Below are positions 5,239 through 13,366 of a DNA stretch of 64,000 bases, piece by piece; the stretch's first letter is position 1, and each line of letters starts with the position of its first letter. The translations under genes were made by a program, and so were the position numbers. Below the pieces are notes generated by a model. That model did not search any database and had not been told where the DNA came from. It was given only the letters and a program-made list of their open reading frames with translations. The stretch is from Pseudodesulfovibrio profundus (GTDB taxonomy: Bacteria; Desulfobacterota; Desulfovibrionia; Desulfovibrionales; Desulfovibrionaceae), in contig NZ_LT907975.1 of assembly GCF_900217235.1 (NCBI RefSeq), positions 3,385,001-3,449,000 on the forward strand, read 5' to 3'.

Positions 5239-5272
5239 TGGACAAACTTGTGTATACCCCTATAGGGTATAC
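5239..5272 (+). promoter_or_regulatory. Promoter with overlapping CsoR/FrmR-like operator
   Basis: A -35 like TGGACA (5239-5244) and a -10 like TATAGG (5261-5266) are 16 bp apart. Over the -10 lies the inverted repeat GTATACCC-N5-GGGTATAC (5252-5272). This A/T-TACCCC...GGGTA-type palindrome resembles operators bound by CsoR/RcnR-family repressors (copper, nickel, formaldehyde or persulfide sensors). The overlap predicts repression of the ferredoxin/cytochrome genes that begin 40 bp downstream. The rest of the 4950-5238 intergenic region is AT-rich with no gene visible. Confidence 0.6.
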
Positions 5273-5311
5273 GCGTGCTGAATCAAAAGTAATACAATGA
5301 GGTGGTGCCTT

Positions 5312-6331
5312 ATGAAAAAAAGGAAAAACACTCCAAATGCCATGACCCGCAGAACATTTTTGCGCAGTCTTGGAATAGGGAGTGCCGCCGCACTTGCTCC
5401 GACCGCAGCTTTGGCCGGACAGGAAAGAATACCCAATCCGTCGCAAGATGAGCTGGCGACCTTGCTGGATCTTTCCAAGTGTATCGGCTGTGGTGAGTGC
5501 GTGGATGCATGTCGTGAGTCCAATGCGACCAAGTTTCCCGAGCCACAAAAACCGTTTCCTAAAATGTCGCCTTCCCGAAAGGCCAAGCCTGAAGACTGGT
5601 CAGACAAGCGGGGAGTGGATGATAGACTCACGCCGTATAACTGGCTGTACCTGCAGACTGCGGAGCTGGAATATAATGGGGAATCCCATGAAATCCATAT
5701 CCCTCGCCGATGCATGCACTGTCAGAATCCTCCGTGTGCACATATGTGCCCATTCGGTGCAGCGAGCAAGTTGAAGAATGGCATAACGCGAATTTACGAT
5801 AGTTTTTGCATGGGAGGCGCAAAGTGTCGCGCCGTTTGCCCCTGGTCGATACCGCAAAGGCAGTCCGGCGTTGGTCTGTACCTTGATCTGACGCCACGTT
5901 TTGCCGGAAACGGTGTGATGTACAAGTGTGACAGATGTTACCAACTGGTCGAAAAGGGCGAAACCCCGGCGTGTGTTTCGGTATGTCCCGAGGATGTACA
6001 GACCATCGGGCCGCGCAATGAAATGATTCGTAAGGCGAGGGAACTTGCCCGGTCCATGAATGGATTCGTTTATGGGATCGATGAAAACGGCGGAACCAAT
6101 ACCTTTTATGTATCCCCTGTACCTTTCGAGCTTCTGAACAAGGCTGTCGAAAAGGGAAAAGGAAAGCCTCATTTGAAGCCGGTTGCATCTGTCATGGCAG
6201 ATGAAACTAAGTTGGCAGCGGCCACACTTATTGCACCCATCGCTGGTGTTGCCGCCGGATTTCTGGGTGTGGGGGCGAAGCTGCTGAGTCGTAAGGACGA
6301 TAAGAGCGAGGGAGGCAACAATGAAAGCTAG
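5312..6331 (+). CDS. Tat-exported multi [4Fe-4S] ferredoxin subunit
   Basis: A periplasmic electron-transfer subunit of the HybA/FdnH/DmsB type, 339 residues. A twin-arginine signal (TRRTFLRS, about residues 12-19) precedes a hydrophobic stretch. Four cluster motifs follow: CIGCGECVDAC, CMHCQNPPCAHMC, CMGGAKCRAVC and CDRC...CVSVC. The third lacks its second cysteine (glycine instead), so it probably binds a [3Fe-4S] or altered cluster. A hydrophobic segment near 300-320 could anchor the C-terminus. The start is ATG 5312 with GAGGTGG upstream. The gene overlaps the cytochrome b gene by 11 bases. No molybdenum or hydrogenase catalytic subunit is adjacent. Confidence 0.85.
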   Translation: MKKRKNTPNAMTRRTFLRSLGIGSAAALAPTAALAGQERIPNPSQDELATLLDLSKCIGCGECVDACRESNATKFPEPQKPFPKMSPSRKAKPEDWSDKRGVDDRLTPYNWLYLQTAELEYNGESHEIHIPRRCMHCQNPPCAHMCPFGAASKLKNGITRIYDSFCMGGAKCRAVCPWSIPQRQSGVGLYLDLTPRFAGNGVMYKCDRCYQLVEKGETPACVSVCPEDVQTIGPRNEMIRKARELARSMNGFVYGIDENGGTNTFYVSPVPFELLNKAVEKGKGKPHLKPVASVMADETKLAAATLIAPIAGVAAGFLGVGAKLLSRKDDKSEGGNNES

Positions 6332-6782
6332 ACCATACCCCTCATGGGTAACCTGGGCGTTCATAGTGATGGTGGGCTTGCTCGCCTTTACCGGGATGAT
6401 CCAGATGCCTCTTGCCAACAGATACTATCTGACAAGCGTTCCGGGCATGGCATGGACCGGTGATTTCTTCTTCGTGCACAAGCTGCATTACGTACTTGCA
6501 TCCCTGTTTTTGTTTTTCTGTGCTGTCATGTCCGTGAATTGGCTGCTCGAATGGCGAAACAGATTGGATTTGACAGCCATGGGCAAAATCCGTTTGTGGA
6601 TGATCGCGGGCATTGTCGCAAGCGGCGGTATGCGGGTTTATCGGAACCTGCCGGATGTCAATATGGACCCGACCTTGGTCCTTGTTGTGGAGTGGGTCCA
6701 TTTTGGACTGGTTATGTTGTTGGGGGTGGTCGCTTTGACCGCAGTCATCCGAAAATCATCGCAATACGTACGTTGGAAATAA
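6321..6782 (+). CDS. Four-helix membrane cytochrome b subunit
   Basis: A 153-residue integral membrane protein with four predicted segments (about 10-30, 52-72, 88-105 and 122-142). Histidines in FVHKLHYVL of helix 2 and EWVHFGL of helix 4 are well placed as heme b ligands, as in cytochrome b561-like subunits of formate dehydrogenases and related complexes. Its start overlaps the ferredoxin gene, so the two are translationally coupled and likely form a membrane module passing electrons between the quinone pool and the periplasmic iron-sulfur subunit. The exact family is not certain. Confidence 0.7.
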   Translation: MKARPYPSWVTWAFIVMVGLLAFTGMIQMPLANRYYLTSVPGMAWTGDFFFVHKLHYVLASLFLFFCAVMSVNWLLEWRNRLDLTAMGKIRLWMIAGIVASGGMRVYRNLPDVNMDPTLVLVVEWVHFGLVMLLGVVALTAVIRKSSQYVRWK

Positions 6783-6801
6783 AGTAAAATTCGATGTGAA
6801 A

Positions 6802-6826
6802 AAGGGGCGTTAAGCCCCTTCTTTCT
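6802..6826 (+). terminator. Terminator after the cytochrome b gene
   Basis: Seven-bp stem AAGGGGC/GCCCCTT (6802-6808 with 6814-6820), five-base loop, then TCTTTC. Confidence 0.7.
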
Positions 6827-6940
6827 GGACCACCGTTTCTTCCCATGCTATCCGCACAAGGTCGATTTGACTCGCTGTCTTTACTGTAGGCAGTCGAAGC
6901 AGCGGTAAGTTTTTTCTGTAAATATAGTGGGTATGGGATA

Positions 6941-7276
6941 ATGAAAAATATTGAATGGAATGACTTTGAAAAAGTTGAACTGCGCGTTGGAACCATTATC
7001 AGGGCAGAGCCTTTCCCTGAAGCACGGAATCCCGCGTATAAAATCTGGATCGACTTCGGTGAAGAGATTGGCGAGCGTAAATCCAGTGCGCAGATTACCG
7101 AGCAGTATTCCCTTGATGATCTGCTGGGCAAACAAGTGATCGCCGTGGTCAACTTTCCCCCCAAGCAAATTGGTCCGATCAAATCAGAGTGCCTGGTAAC
7201 CGGATTCTATCGTGAGGACGGTGTTGTACTGGCCGTGCCGGATAAAGCTGTCCCCAATGGAGTGAAGCTGGCGTAG
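6941..7276 (+). CDS. csaA: CsaA-like tRNA-binding domain protein
   Basis: A 111-residue protein made only of the OB-fold tRNA-binding domain also found in the C-terminus of methionyl-tRNA synthetase. Characteristic stretches are [11 protein letters not shown] near the N-terminus, then [28 protein letters not shown] and ECLVTGF near the C-terminus. The length fits stand-alone CsaA (about 110), described as a chaperone with export-related and tRNA-binding activity. It stands alone between two terminator or intergenic regions. Confidence 0.9.
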
Positions 7277-7514
7277 CACCTCCTTTGTGGAGGGTGTAGT
7301 GATTGTGAATCATAAGTATATCATTCAGCTTTCTTTCATTAAAATGATATGGTTGCTCCAGACACCAGTGGTGTCTCCGATACAGCATGCAAAGCGGCTT
7401 TGGTTCTCGTGGCCGAAAGATTGTTTTACTCTGTTGAAGTGTTAAGGTATTCAAATTGCAGACAGTTGAAAAAAATGACTGACTGTCAAAATACTGGAGC
7501 AACAGGGCGGAGGC

Positions 7515-8519
7515 ATGATTCACTTCACGACACAATTTGATTATCTGCGCGATGTTCAGCGCTCTTTCGAGGGCGGGGCTGGACGCGTTGATATGGTTGG
7601 TGTTTTTGCCAAAATACTGATTGTTGCCGCTCCAGTCGTTTTGCTGATGGCGTTCTGGCATTATCGCCACCGTATTGGTTTTGCGATCAGTCGATCCATT
7701 GTCAGGCTATTTTCTTTCCGTGGCAGGCGGATAGTACAGGATTACCTTGTTAAGAAAGGTGTTCTCTTCGAGATATTTCTCTATACGGGCAATGGGGTGG
7801 GCCGCCGAATCGGCATGGCTCGCGCTACCGATGTCCAGTCGGGAAGGATGCTTCTCGATATTGTCGACATAAAACCGCTTGGCCTGAATCTGAAAGGTGC
7901 TCGCGTCATTTGTTTCACCAAGCCCTTTACTTTGTCAGGTAAAAAAAAGAATGCGTTTGTCACGTTCGTATCCAGTTATGTGAAACGAGGTGGGACCATT
8001 CGAGAGATGTCCTTGCTGACGCCTGTGCGATATCAATTTGAAATTCGCAGAAGACACAAGCGTAAACGGATCGTTCGTGAAGGGGCGGTTCGGGTCAAGC
8101 TGTGGGATATTTCAAAGCGTAATTCGTTTTTTATGGCCAAGCCCGATTTACAGACCGTAAATAATCCGGCTCGCTACGGAAAGAAGATGCGTTTATCGGT
8201 GGAGAATATCTCGGCCGGCGGTATACGGTTGCTGATCATGAATCCTTCAGGGCGGCTTCCGTCTTTGAGTCCCGGGCATCAGTTCATTCTTCGCGTCAGC
8301 GTATGGAGCCCCAAGACTCGGAAGTTTTCCTATTTTACGGTGGTTGGGACCATCCGAAGCCGATTCAAAGGCAAGGGCGGATCCATTGGCCTTGGGATTC
8401 AGTTTACCGCGGAAGGTATGAAGATTGACGGCAAATACCAATGGAAAAGCCTCCACGGTGAGGTGAAGGCTTTGGCTCAGTTTCTGGAAGAATCGAATGA
8501 ATGGAGCGCTCGCTCCTGA
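7515..8519 (+). CDS. Membrane-anchored PilZ-domain protein (c-di-GMP effector)
   Basis: A 334-residue protein with one membrane segment (about 28-45). A middle domain of unknown family follows (about 70-170), then a PilZ-like domain with the arginine-rich RRRHKRKR motif (about 178) and the partner motif VENISAGGI (about 233). These two motifs are the c-di-GMP binding signature. A diguanylate cyclase gene lies 20 kb away in the same window. The GGCGGAGG site sits close to ATG 7515, so the start is reasonable but not certain; ATG 7593 is the alternative. The gene converges on the Fur-family gene with only 9 bases between. Confidence 0.75.
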   Translation: MIHFTTQFDYLRDVQRSFEGGAGRVDMVGVFAKILIVAAPVVLLMAFWHYRHRIGFAISRSIVRLFSFRGRRIVQDYLVKKGVLFEIFLYTGNGVGRRIGMARATDVQSGRMLLDIVDIKPLGLNLKGARVICFTKPFTLSGKKKNAFVTFVSSYVKRGGTIREMSLLTPVRYQFEIRRRHKRKRIVREGAVRVKLWDISKRNSFFMAKPDLQTVNNPARYGKKMRLSVENISAGGIRLLIMNPSGRLPSLSPGHQFILRVSVWSPKTRKFSYFTVVGTIRSRFKGKGGSIGLGIQFTAEGMKIDGKYQWKSLHGEVKALAQFLEESNEWSARS

Positions 8520-8528
8520 TCTCTTGTG

Positions 8529-8960
8529 TTACTTGCTCCGGCAATCGGAACAGATGCCATACAGATACATTTTATGCCGGAGTAGCTTGAAGCCATGCTC
8601 TTCGGCCAGTTGTTCCTGTCGGCTTTCAATGGTCTCATCGAGTATTTCGATATTTTTCCCGCACTTGTCACAAATGAGATGGTCGTGATGGGTCTGACCG
8701 TAGCGCCACTCGTAGCGAACAACACCGTCAGCGAAGTCGAGCGGTTCTATCAGTCCGGATTCGTTGAGCAGTTTTAATGTTCGGTAAACGGTTGCCTGGC
8801 CGATTGAGGAGTCTCTTTTCTTTACATTGGCATATAATTCTTCAGAAGAGAGATGGCCATCCTGCTTGAGGAACGTGTCAAGAATGAGCCGTCTTTGCGG
8901 TGTCACTTTGAGATTCTTGTCAGCCAGATAGTCTGCGAATAGTTCTTGAGGATTCTTCAT
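8529..8960 (-). CDS. Fur-family metalloregulator (Fur/PerR type)
   Basis: A 143-residue DNA-binding repressor. The N-terminal winged helix contains VTPQRRLILDTF and SIGQATVYRTLKLLNESGLI (recognition helix). The C-terminal half has the metal region THHDHLICDKCGK and a second CxxC (CSDC) near the C-terminus, giving the structural zinc site. The sequence cannot decide between iron (Fur) and peroxide (PerR) sensing. It is a single gene oriented away from the tRNA-Ser. Confidence 0.88.
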   Translation of the reverse strand: MKNPQELFADYLADKNLKVTPQRRLILDTFLKQDGHLSSEELYANVKKRDSSIGQATVYRTLKLLNESGLIEPLDFADGVVRYEWRYGQTHHDHLICDKCGKNIEILDETIESRQEQLAEEHGFKLLRHKMYLYGICSDCRSK

Positions 8961-9061
8961 ATTCTTGCGTGGTTAGTTTTTGTACAAAGCCGTTCATTTT
9001 CCAATACGATATGGATGAAGCCATGTCAAAGAGGTAAAGTGAATTCATGTTTCATTGCTCC

Positions 9062-9090
9062 TTGACATTTCCCAACTTGATTTCTACAAT
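9062..9090 (+). promoter_or_regulatory. Sigma70 promoter of tRNA-Ser
   Basis: TTGACA (9062-9067) and TACAAT (9085-9090) separated by exactly 17 bp, 41 bp upstream of the tRNA. This is a near-consensus housekeeping promoter. Confidence 0.8.
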
Positions 9091-9131
9091 GTTTCACTCA
9101 CTTCACAGGCACTGCTTGTGAGGCACCATAC

Positions 9132-9223
9132 GGAGAGGTGGCAGAGCTCGGTTTAATGCGCTGGTCTTGAAAACCAGAGGCGGGGTGACTCGTCCGGGGG
9201 TTCGAATCCCTCCCTCTCCGCCA
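9132..9223 (+). tRNA. tRNA-Ser (anticodon TGA)
   Basis: A 92-nt class II tRNA. The acceptor GGAGAGG pairs with CCTCTCC (9213-9219), followed by G and an encoded CCA (9221-9223). The anticodon stem CTGGT/ACCAG encloses CTTGAAA with anticodon TGA at 9168-9170. A long variable arm and a T-loop GTTCGAATC are present. Its 3' end is the attachment site of the element that follows; integration restored the full tRNA sequence. Confidence 0.97.
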
Positions 9224-9227
9224 TAGA
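9206..9227 (+). repeat. attL direct repeat in the tRNA-Ser 3' end
   Basis: A 22-bp sequence spanning the T-arm, acceptor and CCA of tRNA-Ser is repeated exactly at 13662-13683 in the same orientation. Identity stops on both sides (A versus G before, G versus A after). This is the expected core of a tRNA-targeting tyrosine integrase. Confidence 0.9.
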
Positions 9228-9257
9228 GCATAATCACTTTGTCTCATGAAGTGTCAT

Positions 9258-9282
9258 AAGCCCTCAAAATGAGGGCTTTTTT
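9258..9282 (+). terminator. Terminator downstream of tRNA-Ser (inside the element)
   Basis: Nine-bp stem AAGCCCTCA/TGAGGGCTT (9258-9266 with 9270-9278), three-base loop, six T. It is supplied by the element and replaces the host terminator now found beyond attR. Confidence 0.85.
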
Positions 9283-9404
9283 GTTGCTTTTATTGTGTCT
9301 TGCGGTGTCATAGGGTGTCTTGAGATGGCTGGTATAAAGGTACAAAAAGTGGTATAAATCGAAATATACCATTTTTCATTATACCACTCTCAGGAGAAAA
9401 CCAC

Positions 9405-10625
9405 ATGCCGCTGACAGATGCCAAGATTAAAGCAGCCAAGCCGAAATCCAAAGAATACTCCCTGAATGATGGTGAAGGCCTATCTCTTGTCGTTAACCCG
9501 AAAGGGCGCAAGTGGTGGCGTTTTCGCTACCAGATGAACGGCAAGCAAACCATGCTGTCTTTGGGGGCGTATCCTTACATCAGTTTACAAGACGCACGAC
9601 TCAAGCGCGGTGATATGAAAACCCTCATTGCCAAAGGCCATGATCCTTCACGGAAACGCAAGGAGGACAAGAGGAAGGCAAGTGCTAGTGAAGGATTTGA
9701 AGCCATCGCACGGGAGTGGTTTGAAAAACAGGTAGACTCCGGGTGGAGTGATCGTCACGCAAAAACCACAATGGAACGGATGAAGAAGAACATCTTCCCC
9801 TTCATTGGAGACAGGCCCATATCGGAGCTTGGCGTTGAGGATATGCTTGGAGTCGTTCAACGATGCGAGAAACGAGGAGCCGTGGAGACAGCTCGGCGTA
9901 TTCGTCAAATAATGTCGCAAGTCTTTCGCTACGCAGTGGCTGCTGGACGAGCTGAGCGAGATCCTGCTGCGGATATTAAAGGTGCGCTCCCTCCGGCTAG
10001 GAAGGTGAAGCACCATGCTTCTATTACCGCCCCTAAGGAAATTGGCCCTCTCTTGAGGGCTATAGATGGCTTCTCTGGAACTTTGGTGGTGCATTGCGCT
10101 CTCAAGTTCGCTCCCTTGGTTTTTGTGCGTCCAGGGGAGCTTAGGAACGCAGAATGGAGTGAAATAAACTTGGAAGGGAGAGAGTGGCGGATACCTTCGG
10201 AGAAAATGAAAGGAGGGAGCCCTCATATCGTTCCCCTGTCTACTCAGGCCGTGGATGTCTTAACAGAACTCCATTCACTTACTGGCCCCTCTGGCTATGT
10301 CTTTCCAAGTGTGCGAACAGCCTCACGCCCGATGTCTGAGAATACGATCAACGTTTCTTTGCGGCGTATCGGATACGACAAAACCGAAATGACCGGCCAT
10401 GGATTCAGGTCTATGGCGTCTACGCTATTAAATGAGCATGGATGGCATAAGGATGCCATTGAAAGACAATTGGCTCATACGCCCAAAGACAAGGTGAGGG
10501 CGAGCTACAACTACGCCGAGCATTTGCCGGAACGTAAGCGGATGATGCAGGCGTGGGCTGATTATTTGGATAGCTTGAAAGATGGTGGGAAAGTAGTCCC
10601 GTTGTTTGCGCAGAAGGTGGGGTAA
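9405..10625 (+). CDS. int: P4-type tyrosine integrase
   Basis: A 406-residue site-specific recombinase. The N-terminal 90 residues form the arm-binding domain typical of P4-like integrases (LTDAKIKAAKPK, then DGEGLSLVVNPKGRKWWRFRY). A core-binding domain follows (about 105-190), then the catalytic domain with arginine in RPGELRNAEW, HGFRS (H-x-x-R) and tyrosine in ASYNYAEH. All catalytic residues are visible, so the enzyme may be active. The gene lies 180 bp from the tRNA and reads away from it. AGGAG precedes the ATG. Confidence 0.95.
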   Translation: MPLTDAKIKAAKPKSKEYSLNDGEGLSLVVNPKGRKWWRFRYQMNGKQTMLSLGAYPYISLQDARLKRGDMKTLIAKGHDPSRKRKEDKRKASASEGFEAIAREWFEKQVDSGWSDRHAKTTMERMKKNIFPFIGDRPISELGVEDMLGVVQRCEKRGAVETARRIRQIMSQVFRYAVAAGRAERDPAADIKGALPPARKVKHHASITAPKEIGPLLRAIDGFSGTLVVHCALKFAPLVFVRPGELRNAEWSEINLEGREWRIPSEKMKGGSPHIVPLSTQAVDVLTELHSLTGPSGYVFPSVRTASRPMSENTINVSLRRIGYDKTEMTGHGFRSMASTLLNEHGWHKDAIERQLAHTPKDKVRASYNYAEHLPERKRMMQAWADYLDSLKDGGKVVPLFAQKVG

Positions 10626-10627
10626 GT

Positions 10628-11368
10628 ATGAGTATCATGGCTAAAGGTTGGTCTTGGTCGGGGGTTAATCTAAATGTCCTGCCTGAAATTGATTTTGATA
10701 AATTAGAAAAACAAATAGATCTCCAGCTTACTCAAGATACTCGGGAACTTATAAAAATAGGTCTCTCGGACTACATCTGTCAAATGCGGGGGTGGAAAGA
10801 TAAACCATCACCAAAGAGTAGGAAGGCCTCATTAAAAAGGATTGTGAAAGCCTGTAAGGTGCTTGAGCCTATTTTTGAATTGGATTCTCCTGGCATTTCA
10901 AATGAAGATGAATATGATCCGCTTAAGCTGCATGAGTGGAAGTGTATAATGCCTTTGGGGCAGTATTCTTTTGATGGGGAAGCTGTGGCTGATTACTTAG
11001 CAAGATGTCGCGGCCAGGCTGAAGATGAGTTAAAAGCGATGATTAGGAGGGAGGAGGAGAGGAAGGAGGAGGAAAGGAAGAAAGGGAAGGAGGAGAAGTC
11101 AAAAAAAATTGAAAAGAAAAATGATAAACCTGGTCCTCGTAAAGATTTTGCAAGACCTCTTTGTTTGGAATGGCTTCACAAAGTTTTTGTCGAGGCTGGG
11201 GGAGATGGTCGAATAAAAAGGTACGACAATGTTTATACTGGGCCGTTTTATTTGTTTGCCGGAAAGTTATTTAGTCTTATTGGTGTTCCTCTTTCTCCAG
11301 GTTCTATCTATGAAAATCTTCAATCTTCACTGTATTATAAATGGTATCTTCAGAGAATTAAGCCCTAA
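10628..11368 (+). CDS. Hypothetical element protein with charged coiled-coil region
   Basis: A 246-residue protein I cannot assign. It starts two bases after the integrase stop, so the two are probably co-transcribed. The first 130 residues are mixed. A highly charged stretch (about 140-175, runs of Glu, Arg and Lys) probably forms an extended helix or coiled coil. The last 70 residues look globular and aromatic-rich. Its base composition is clearly AT-richer than the host genes, in line with acquisition by transfer. Confidence 0.6.
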   Translation: MSIMAKGWSWSGVNLNVLPEIDFDKLEKQIDLQLTQDTRELIKIGLSDYICQMRGWKDKPSPKSRKASLKRIVKACKVLEPIFELDSPGISNEDEYDPLKLHEWKCIMPLGQYSFDGEAVADYLARCRGQAEDELKAMIRREEERKEEERKKGKEEKSKKIEKKNDKPGPRKDFARPLCLEWLHKVFVEAGGDGRIKRYDNVYTGPFYLFAGKLFSLIGVPLSPGSIYENLQSSLYYKWYLQRIKP

Positions 11369-11468
11369 AGTTGCTTTAATAAACTGTTAGAAAAATCTTA
11401 TAGTGCTTCATACGGTTCCATCAAGAGTAAAGGCATTCATGTGAATGCCACAATCTATGGAGGAACCT

Positions 11469-11672
11469 ATGAAACAACCTTTTCCGCAAGTGGGCTTTGT
11501 TCGCCTACCCCAAGTCCTCTCCGTTATTCCCCTCAGTCGCAGTACTTGGTTGCGTGGGGTTAAATCTGGGAAATATCCACAACCGGTGTCGTTGACTGAA
11601 AGAACCCGGGCTTGGCGTGTTGAGGATATCCTTGAGTTGATAGACTCCCTATCTGAAACGGCAGCCAGCTAA
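11469..11672 (+). CDS. AlpA-family transcriptional regulator
   Basis: A 67-residue MerR-like helix-turn-helix protein of the AlpA/phage excisionase-activator family. It has FVRLPQVLSVIPLSRSTWLRGVKSGKYPQPVSL followed by the AWRVEDILELI strand-helix, which is close to the family consensus. ATG 11469 has GGAGG five bases upstream, so the longer frame from 11445 was not used. AlpA proteins in P4-like elements regulate the integrase or act in excision. Confidence 0.85.
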   Translation: MKQPFPQVGFVRLPQVLSVIPLSRSTWLRGVKSGKYPQPVSLTERTRAWRVEDILELIDSLSETAAS

Positions 11673-11676
11673 AGTT

Positions 11677-12135
11677 ATGCAATCCGGTATGCGCTTTTTG
11701 CCTTACAAGCTTTTTGTGGGGTTATTCATTCCTGATATTGTAGCGAGTTTCGATGGGTTACAGCTTTCATCGAAACTTGTTTGGGGAAAGTTGGCACAAC
11801 ATGCAGGTGAAACCGGTGATTGTTTTCCTGGTGTTGATACCATTGCAGAAGGGCTCGGCTGTAGCGGACGAACCGTACAACGCTGTCTCAATGAGTTGAT
11901 TGAAAAAAAGTTCATTGAAGTTGAGCGTTGCTTCAGAAAGAAAAGTCGTCTGCAGACAACCAATCGCTATTATTTCCTTTGGCATCCAATTTTTGATTCA
12001 GCTTTGACTCGGACAAAGCAAGAGTCTGACAGGGTGACAAAAAGTCGCCCTAGGGATGACAAAAAGTCACCCCTAGGAGCGACAAAAAGTCACCCCTCCA
12101 ACGGTGACAAGATGTCACCCAAAGAGAATCAGTAA
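11677..12135 (+). CDS. Initiator-like winged-helix protein, possibly truncated by the IS
   Basis: A 152-residue protein starting 4 bases after alpA. Residues 20-100 form a helix-turn-helix domain (SSKLVWGKLAQHAGETGDCFPGVDTIAEGLGCSGRTVQRCLNELIEKKFIEVE), as in Rep-type and phage replication proteins. The C-terminal 40 residues are low-complexity Asp/Lys/Ser/Pro and arise from four DNA repeats (12035-12120) read in different frames. The stop TAA at 12133-12135 abuts the inserted IS3 element, so the original protein may have been longer. A replication-initiator role is inferred from the fold and embedded repeats; a plain transcription factor is possible. Confidence 0.6.
   Translation: MQSGMRFLPYKLFVGLFIPDIVASFDGLQLSSKLVWGKLAQHAGETGDCFPGVDTIAEGLGCSGRTVQRCLNELIEKKFIEVERCFRKKSRLQTTNRYYFLWHPIFDSALTRTKQESDRVTKSRPRDDKKSPLGATKSHPSNGDKMSPKENQ
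12035..12120 (+). repeat. Four iteron-like repeats with internal dyad
   Basis: Copies of TGACAAAAAGTCRCCC begin at 12035, 12057, 12080 and 12105 (spacings 22, 23 and 25 bp; the third begins with C, the fourth reads TGACAAGATGTCACCC). Each holds the dyad GAC-N5-GTC. The spacings are near two helical turns and are not all multiples of three, so the repeat is conserved as DNA, not as peptide. They lie inside the initiator-like gene, as phage lambda origin iterons lie inside gene O. Confidence 0.75.
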
Positions 12136-12200
12136 GAAGTGGGTTCAGGAAACTGGACCACGAGCTAAGGTGGACGTAAGAAGCCCAAAGGAGGCTTTTG

Positions 12201-12488
12201 ATGTCCAGGAAAAGAAGGAACTTTACCGCCGAATTCAAGACCCGTGTCGCGTTGGATGCCTTGTCCGGCGAACACACCCTGTCCGAGCTCGCCAGCAGGT
12301 ACGGCGTGCATCCCAACCAGGTTTCCCAGTGGAAGAAGCAGGCCAAGGAGCAGATCGTAGCTGGCTTTGCGGGCAAGGCCCAAAAGACCCAACAAAGCGA
12401 TGAGGCCCGGATAAAAGAGCTTCACGCCAAGATCGGCCAGCTCACGGTGGAGAAGGATTTTTTGCAACAAGCCTTCGCAAAGATATGA
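12201..12488 (+). CDS. IS3-family transposase OrfA
   Basis: A 95-residue DNA-binding half of the transposase. The helix-turn-helix (KRRNFTAEFKTRVALDAL, then LSELASRYGVHPNQVSQWKKQ) is followed by a leucine-zipper-like helix ending in [16 protein letters not shown] 12201 is preceded by GGAGG at six bases. The stop overlaps the orfB start in ATGA, so orfB is probably translated by coupling or frameshifting. The reading frame is intact. Confidence 0.92.
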   Translation: MSRKRRNFTAEFKTRVALDALSGEHTLSELASRYGVHPNQVSQWKKQAKEQIVAGFAGKAQKTQQSDEARIKELHAKIGQLTVEKDFLQQAFAKI

Positions 12489-13366
12489 GCTGCGAGCGAA
12501 GGCGAGACATCGTCGACAAGGGGCATCCGATGCTCAGTGTTCGACGGCAGTGCGAAATCCTCAAGCTGCACCGCTCAACGTACTATTACCAGCCGATCGG
12601 CGAGTCCGCGTCCAACTTGGCGCTCATGAAGCGCATCGACGAGTTGTTCCTGGAGTTGCCGTTCTTCGGCTCCCGGCAGATGCGCAACATCCTGCGCGAT
12701 GAGGGCCATCAACTCGGGCGCAATCGCGTCCGGCGGCTCATGCGCAAGATGGGGTTGATGGCGGTCTATCAGAAGCCGCGAACCAGCCAGCCTCATCCGC
12801 AGCACAAGACGTATCCGTATCTGCTGCGCGGCAAGGCGATCACGAGGCCGAACCAGGTGTGGTGCGCCGACATCACGTACATCCCGATGAAGCGGGGCTT
12901 CCTGTACCTCGTGGCGATCATGGACTGGCACAGCCGCGCGGTGCTCTCCTGGCGGCTGTCGAACACCATGGAAGCGGACTTCTGCGTGTCCGCCCTGGAG
13001 GAGGCCCTGAACCGCTACGGCGTGCCCGAAATCTTCAACACGGACCAAGGCTCGCAGTTTACGAGCTACGAGTTCACACGGACGCTCCGGGAAGCCGGAG
13101 CCCGCATCTCCATGGACGGCCGCGGCCGCTGGATGGACAACGTCATGATCGAACGCCTGTGGCGATCACTGAAATACGAATGCGTGTATCTGCGGGAATT
13201 GGAAACGGGAAGCGAGTTGCGGCAGGCCCTGGCCTGGTGGATCGATTTCTACAACAACCGCCGCCCACACAAGGCGTTTGACGGCAGAAAGCCGATGGAG
13301 ATATATCAGGAAGGCCCCAAGCCAGAGGGGGTACCCCCTCTGGCTTGGCCCCACAAGGCGGCGTAG
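12485..13366 (+). CDS. IS3-family transposase OrfB (DDE integrase)
   Basis: A 293-residue catalytic subunit. An N-terminal HTH_21-type segment ([42 protein letters not shown]) precedes the rve integrase core. The DDE residues are in [20 protein letters not shown] and [12 protein letters not shown], and the family ending [15 protein letters not shown] is present. All catalytic residues and full length are seen, so the copy may be active. Confidence 0.94.

Follow-up and report, generated by a model that had tools for sequence, protein, structure and literature searches.

An electron-transfer gene pair behind a predicted CsoR/CstR-type operator in Pseudodesulfovibrio is probably turned on by reactive sulfur

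Results

An Fe-S/cytochrome b gene pair behind a palindromic promoter

We analyzed a 64,000-nucleotide stretch of the Pseudodesulfovibrio profundus genome (NZ_LT907975.1, positions 3,385,001 to 3,449,000 of the forward strand), referred to as the window and numbered from its first letter. Two overlapping genes, for an Fe-S protein and a cytochrome b-like membrane protein, follow a promoter that contains a palindrome:

5239-5244, + strand: predicted -35 element TGGACA, its position relative to the palindrome kept across 31 aligned upstream regions
5252-5272, no strand: predicted CsoR/CstR-type operator GTATACCC-CTATA-GGGTATAC, from the window match and a perfect core in 31 of 36 genus genomes
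5261-5266, + strand: predicted -10 element TATAGG, lying within the operator after a 16-nt spacer, central TATA kept in 26 to 30 of 31 regions
5299-5305, + strand: ribosome-binding site GAGGTGG, from reading the sequence
5312-6331, + strand: Tat-signal Fe-S protein, HmcB/HybA/OhcB-like, from Pfam Fer4 domains, NCBIfam and reading
6321-6782, + strand: helical cytochrome b-like membrane protein, from alignment and a predicted model
6802-6820, + strand: terminator-like hairpin after the second gene (z -2.33; 6 of 200 shuffles fold equally well)

The Fe-S protein has Fer4 domains in Pfam and, by eye, a twin-arginine motif, four cysteine groups and a hydrophobic stretch at the C-terminus. Its closest models are HmcB and HybA, both far below their cut-offs; the score against NCBIfam HmcB (NF045715) is 130.4 bits with a cut-off of 420, so by this measure the protein is not HmcB. 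The second gene overlaps the first by 11 nt, and its product has no Pfam match at E 0.001 and no NCBIfam match at E 1. Its residues His56 and His127 are invariant in all 90 aligned sequences, the window protein included, and the protein is modelled with confidence as a bundle of helices (pLDDT 92), which together make a haem b role likely. Foldseek gave no match for this model at E up to 0.001. When testing for a HyaC/FdnI-type fold with VIA, the best match was 6g94_B, a hydrogenase-1 cytochrome b (Z 12.0, rmsd 4.5, 130 aligned), a score that may reflect only a common arrangement, as Z 13 is advised for helical bundles. An earlier note on this DNA had described a Tat ferredoxin and a cytochrome b gene behind the promoter, which agrees with the Fer4 domains, the twin-arginine motif and the invariant histidines; the haem itself we infer.

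Because the hairpin lies 3' of the cytochrome b gene, the transcription unit probably consists of these two genes; the consensus scanner did not list this hairpin. No gene for a redox partner is encoded beside the pair in this genome, and a search with one octaheme cytochrome homologue and no positive control, a weak negative, found no match in the genome. We also looked for a C-terminal fusion that would reveal the partner and saw none; long stop-to-stop frames were not cytochrome fusions.

A small protein with a tRNA-binding domain (PF01588) is encoded at 6941-7276, after the pair, and a relative follows the pair in loci L133, L137 and L154 too. Further downstream we noted a phage- or island-type integrase (9405-10625, by eye) and an IS3-like transposase pair (12198-13366), and a mobile island may begin downstream of the pair (9405-13366). 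Here and below, the labels transposase, [NiFe] hydrogenase, copA, ABC-type ATPase and periplasmic rhodanese were assigned by eye rather than by a family scan.

Operator and promoter are conserved together

The sequence GTATACCCCTATAGGGTATAC is present exactly at 5252-5272, the sole match in the window at up to three mismatches; shuffled windows gave a mean of 0.03 matches per shuffle, with one match in 3 of 100 shuffles. We aligned 31 upstream regions of the genus on the palindrome. These had been picked by a perfect palindrome and a C at the next position, so the informative parts are the rest of the centre, the -35 region and the flanks. A shared -35 sequence TTGAC (26 to 28 of 31 at each position) stands 15 nt before ATACCC and reads TTGACA or TTGACT in most relatives, versus TGGACA in the window; the window promoter is TGGACA-N16-TATAGG and the genus-derived form TTGACA-N16-TATAGG. 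The central TATA is kept although the selection did not require it, presumably because it is the -10 element, and the flanks have a mean identity of 28%. One aligned region, that of G217, which has two sites, is possibly on the wrong strand. The consensus promoter scanner listed no promoter on the + strand at the palindrome. Since the -35 element, the palindrome and the central TATA are conserved together, operator and promoter appear to be one element, and the predicted operator before the pair is under selection. The palindrome had been proposed to overlap the -10 element, and the aligned genus promoters bear this out as a prediction.

The genus set comprised 36 genomes assigned to Pseudodesulfovibrio by named relatives (the close named relatives are mostly Pseudodesulfovibrio), and all 36 encode a homologue of the cytochrome. 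Perfect copies of ATACCC-N5-GGGTAT number 67 in these genomes, compared with 4 for the reversed control, and at least one is present in 34 of the 36. A chance palindrome was ruled out by this comparison and the window shuffles. The earlier note would have been contradicted by orthologous pairs lacking the palindrome; a perfect copy precedes the pair in 31 of the 36 genomes. A one-mismatch site at 6335-6351, inside the coding sequence at the start of the cytochrome b gene, was taken as coincidence.

The 67 sites fall into few classes: 32 precede the pair, 28 precede an operon for a PhsA-like molybdoenzyme and rhodaneses, by position, 3 precede an FmdE-MoeA gene and 4 lie elsewhere. The 32 pair sites (31 genomes) are 1.03-1.15 kb before the cytochrome b gene. 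Another 26 sites (22 genomes) lie upstream of csoR at no more than 10 kb. For 24 of these the distance is 7.2-7.5 kb, which is the start of the PhsA-like/rhodanese operon; we read the operon content itself in 11 genus genomes (G000 among them) and assigned the remaining operon sites by position. The other two of the 26 are in G116, a genome without the PhsA operon, 0.8 kb before csoR. Among the other nine sites, four precede the operon's cytochrome gene (G199, G206, G209, G210), three the FmdE-MoeA gene (G000, G164, G185), one an octaheme cytochrome gene (G171) and one an ABC-type ATPase gene (G148). The last (L280:2452-2468) lies between tRNA-Glu and the ATPase gene and possibly marks a further regulon member or a chance match.

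A single CsoR-family repressor lies beside sulfur genes

A further condition of the earlier note was that the genome encode a CsoR-family protein. It encodes exactly one at E up to 0.001 (at 1,778.6 kb), which scored 93.1 bits against PF02583 (CsoR/RcnR; gathering cut-off 22.8). The neighbours of csoR are a TorD-like gene, divergently oriented, and an operon that encodes a c-type cytochrome, the PhsA-like molybdoenzyme, an Fe-S protein, a cytochrome b561-type protein, two rhodaneses, the first of them triple, and an AhpC/TSA protein with a thioredoxin fold. A family scan assigned the operon rhodanese to PF00581. The best family of the PhsA-like protein is NF012032, at 539.7 bits and below the cut-off of 694, so that it does not count as a thiosulfate reductase by this model.

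In this genome, a perfect site precedes the FmdE-MoeA gene, and one-mismatch sites precede the PhsA-like operon (two close, one further up) and the periplasmic rhodanese-like gene and lie between the TorD-like gene and csoR. At up to two mismatches we counted 122 sites versus 94 for the control, and one-mismatch sites are mostly expected by chance (about 9, by arithmetic). We therefore relied on sites common to several genomes. The FmdE-MoeA gene with its perfect operator stands directly after a nap-like cluster (L010:4652-6340 and 6361-10724), whose genes are NapA/NapG/NapH-like with scores below the cut-offs. The octaheme cytochrome gene has a perfect operator upstream in two genera (L282:2533 and L330:1501), in G171 and in G021, the CsoR of G021 being Cys-Tyr-Cys at the sensor positions described next.

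The sensor residues point away from copper

The copper-site ligand set of CsoR is Cys-His-Cys. Alignment of the repressor with CsoR proteins, including the CsoR and CstR chains of the PDB, identified Cys43, Tyr68 and Cys72 at these positions, with Tyr68 standing where copper-type CsoR has histidine. Cys-Tyr-Cys is present in 34 of 35 genus CsoR proteins, and the exception, G139, has Cys-Arg-Phe; 32 of the 35 (31 of them Cys-Tyr-Cys) were in the alignment and the last three were read separately. Over all distinct CsoR proteins aligned, 34 were Cys-Tyr-Cys, 13 Cys-His-Cys and 1 Cys-Arg-Phe. The repressor thus has two cysteines and no copper-site histidine, and sulfurtransferase genes are in its predicted regulon, as in the CstR type. 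In our reading, its residues are as expected of CstR-like sulfane-sulfur sensors.

The repressor could instead be a sensor of copper or another metal, with the pair belonging to a metal response. Its best PDB chain is the copper CsoR 4m1p (60.8 bits), followed by CstR chains (55.3), and its best NCBIfam model is the copper-sensing RicR, at 58.6 bits and below the cut-off of 175. A copA-like gene lies near csoR in G171, and copper-type csoR genes of other genera carry the same operator (see below). Moreover, according to excerpts of PMC10318464, Cu(II) abolishes DNA binding by TTHA1953 via disulfides, and this CsoR-like protein has two cysteines as well. Against this, the copper-site histidine is replaced in every genus protein (tyrosine in 34, arginine in one), and the predicted regulon consists mostly of sulfur genes. 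We also scanned the 1.5 kb upstream of this genome's closest CopA, which shares 79% identity with the G171 protein: the 17-mer does not occur there at up to two mismatches, and the one three-mismatch site is more than 1.3 kb away. Hence, we rejected copper efflux as a function under this operator, and regard a metal sensor as unlikely.

The CsoR family also includes FrmR, and the signal might be formaldehyde or another electrophile. The repressor scored 42.5 bits against the NCBIfam FrmR model, below the cut-off of 133, and lacks a histidine that FrmR keeps. By reading of the genes rather than by family search, the loci inspected showed no gene for formaldehyde oxidation, either close to csoR or behind the operator. 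We consider an FrmR-like signal highly improbable.

The pair keeps its operator where the PhsA operon is missing

In five genus genomes no perfect site was found at the pair. The contig of G214 starts 606 bases before the cytochrome gene, so that the pair promoter is missing from the assembly; this genome, 82% complete, encodes a Cys-Tyr-Cys CsoR, has no perfect palindrome and has a one-mismatch site at the operon. The four others are G139, G199, G206 and G213. Cytochrome identity is 43% in G139 and 39-40% in G199, G206 and G213, and the pairs of these last three have no upstream site at up to one mismatch; the three genomes have a Cys-Tyr-Cys CsoR and the operon site. In G139, where CsoR is without its second cysteine, a perfect palindrome and the PhsA operon are both absent.

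Six genus genomes contain only a distant relative (32-36%) of the PhsA-like protein. One is G139, and the other five (G046, G116, G171, G205, G217) keep both the Cys-Tyr-Cys CsoR and the perfect operator on the pair, suggesting that the pair is more than a passenger of the reductase operon. By this comparison, the pair is a predicted regulon target in its own right, beyond the PhsA operon.

CsoR control of the pair looks like an addition made in one lineage

We found matches to the cytochrome in 111 of 199 family genomes, in other Desulfobacterota and in two Eisenbacteria records, and the pair occurs widely without any operator site. Our survey of pairs took the 90 of these 111 genomes with a cytochrome b match and left out the weaker 21. 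Of the 90 pairs, 73 are outside the genus and two of these (L034, L111) end before the promoter; none of the remaining 71 has a perfect site before it. Two-mismatch variants, mostly ATACCCCC-N-GGGGTT, are found at the same place before six non-genus pairs (L030, L036, L038, L073, L075, L085), which is suggestive only; G153, the genome of L030, is absent from the CsoR matches.

We also read 20 hand-chosen csoR regions from 18 genomes outside the genus. The csoR/PhsA cluster is present in 13 of them, each time with a perfect or one-mismatch site in front. The FmdE-MoeA gene adjoins csoR in L307, L309, L310 and L326 and lies at the other end of the cluster in L313, and G016 (L320) has the Fe-S/cytochrome b pair directly downstream of csoR. 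With a site at 13 of 13 such clusters versus 0 of 71 pairs, CsoR control of the pair seems to have been added, in this lineage, to a csoR/PhsA regulon that is older.

Outside the genus, the exact 17-mer also immediately precedes a copper-type (Cys-His-Cys) csoR gene in three genomes, which belong to two genera (L329 in G095, G113:C21:9900 and G086:C3:22163), and in G009 similar sites precede csoR and a copA-like gene. An operator shared with copper-type csoR genes does not by itself reveal which inducer acts. These sites bear as well on whether the palindrome belongs to another regulator and is shared with the csoR locus only indirectly. The assignment to CsoR is comparative, and G209 has both the pair and the operon site and no CsoR match, though its assembly is 82% complete. 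However, the sites cluster before csoR's own neighbours, the exact 17-mer directly precedes csoR-family genes in the three genomes above, and no perfect site is found in G139, where CsoR lost its second cysteine. A different regulator is thus very unlikely in our view.

The gene neighbourhood of the pair may point to a broader role. Among 80 named loci, five have an octaheme cytochrome gene adjoining the pair, and in five there is a PF01292-type cytochrome b gene close by as well; the octaheme was assigned to the tetrathionate-reductase family, with both families scanned on L166 and the remaining octahemes assigned by similarity. In L139, L140, L145-L148, L150 and L159, all from Desulfovibrionaceae-type genomes (two named Humidesulfovibrio), the pair is near opposite-strand [NiFe] hydrogenase genes. 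Together with its wide distribution, this could mean that the pair is a general Ohc-like or hydrogenase-linked carrier and that CsoR control is incidental to sulfur reduction. Yet the pair retains the operator in five genomes that lack the PhsA operon, and the octaheme, of the tetrathionate-reductase family, itself has the operator upstream in G171 and G021. We regard a general carrier as a real possibility, if not the one we would choose; it is compatible with our best explanation of the switch.

Discussion

The signal is named, in our reading, by the sensor residues and the regulon, as the operator does not identify it. Of the inducers that the earlier note had left side by side, reactive sulfur is now favoured over a metal or an aldehyde by the Cys-Tyr-Cys residues, the rhodanese/PhsA-like operon under the same operator and the lack of a near match at the copper ATPase. 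Overall, we propose, with a probability of about three in four, that a CstR-type repressor relieved by per- or polysulfide controls the quinone-linked pair together with genes for sulfur-compound reduction. The palindrome would be the operator of the genome's single CsoR-family repressor, a CstR-like dithiol sensor. Bound in its reduced form, the repressor would cover the -10 element and the spacer and silence the pair. A rise in sulfane sulfur (per- or polysulfide) in the cell would lead to modification of the cysteines and departure of the repressor, so that the electron-transfer pair is probably turned on by reactive sulfur. It would be made together with the rest of the regulon: the operon for the c-type cytochrome, PhsA-like molybdoenzyme, Fe-S protein, cytochrome b and rhodaneses, the TorD-like chaperone, the periplasmic rhodanese and the FmdE-MoeA protein. 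As a presumed quinone-linked carrier, the pair would connect the quinone pool, through the cytochrome b, with a putative periplasmic partner, through the Fe-S protein, and carry electrons in one or the other direction while sulfur compounds are reduced or detoxified.

The proposed repressor resembles CstR of Staphylococcus aureus and YrkD of Bacillus licheniformis, which are CsoR-family proteins with two sensor cysteines, no copper histidine and rhodanese genes in the regulon. Repression of rhodaneses is common among CstR homologues, as stated in excerpts of PMC10318464, and the CstR regulons in the excerpts of PMC5480029 and PMC9918477 serve sulfide oxidation and detoxification (cstA, cstB, sqr; sqr, pdo). 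The predicted targets here are different, namely a PhsA-like reductase, FmdE-MoeA and a quinone-linked pair, in an anaerobe. Similar in operator and in its two cysteines is ScCsoR of Streptomyces coelicolor, which, according to excerpts of PMC7533328, senses sulfane sulfur, binds a 16-bp site ATACC-n6-GGTAT with a spacer one base shorter than here, is released by polysulfide, needs Cys37 and Cys66 for release, and regulates a persulfide dioxygenase, a rhodanese and a sulfite transporter. TTHA1953 of Thermus is a two-cysteine CsoR-family repressor of energy sulfur metabolism and differs in that the operator given in excerpts of PMC10318464 is without G/C tracts and the target is Sox oxidation.

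The pair itself recalls the Ohc complex, formed by the Fe-S protein OhcB, the octaheme OhcA and the cytochrome b OhcC, in its Fe-S and cytochrome b proteins and in other genera also in neighbouring genes, where homologues stand beside an octaheme and mostly also a PF01292-type cytochrome b. Unlike the Ohc complex, the two-gene unit has no octaheme, in line with the search of this genome. The ohc genes of D. vulgaris are predicted to be under the sigma54 regulator DVU3142 (excerpts of PMC4641369).

A survey of titles and abstract openings found no report of a CsoR/CstR regulon in sulfate reducers. The new regulatory link that the earlier note expected in a sulfate reducer is supported by comparison, mostly within one genus. 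More tentatively, at slightly less than even odds, we suggest that the Cys-Tyr-Cys sensor treats sulfane sulfur as a respiratory signal in sulfate reducers, switching on a dedicated quinone-linked carrier, a PhsA-like reductase and rhodaneses, with sulfur-compound reduction rather than sulfide oxidation as the output and the pair as its core target, kept even without the operon. In the descriptions that we found, persulfide sensors of this family act on sulfide oxidation, detoxification or Sox oxidation. Such a regulon in sulfide producers, if true, would tell us what amounts to sulfur excess for a cell that lives by making sulfide, and would give a directly testable function to an unnamed electron-transfer pair that is widespread in the Desulfobacterota.
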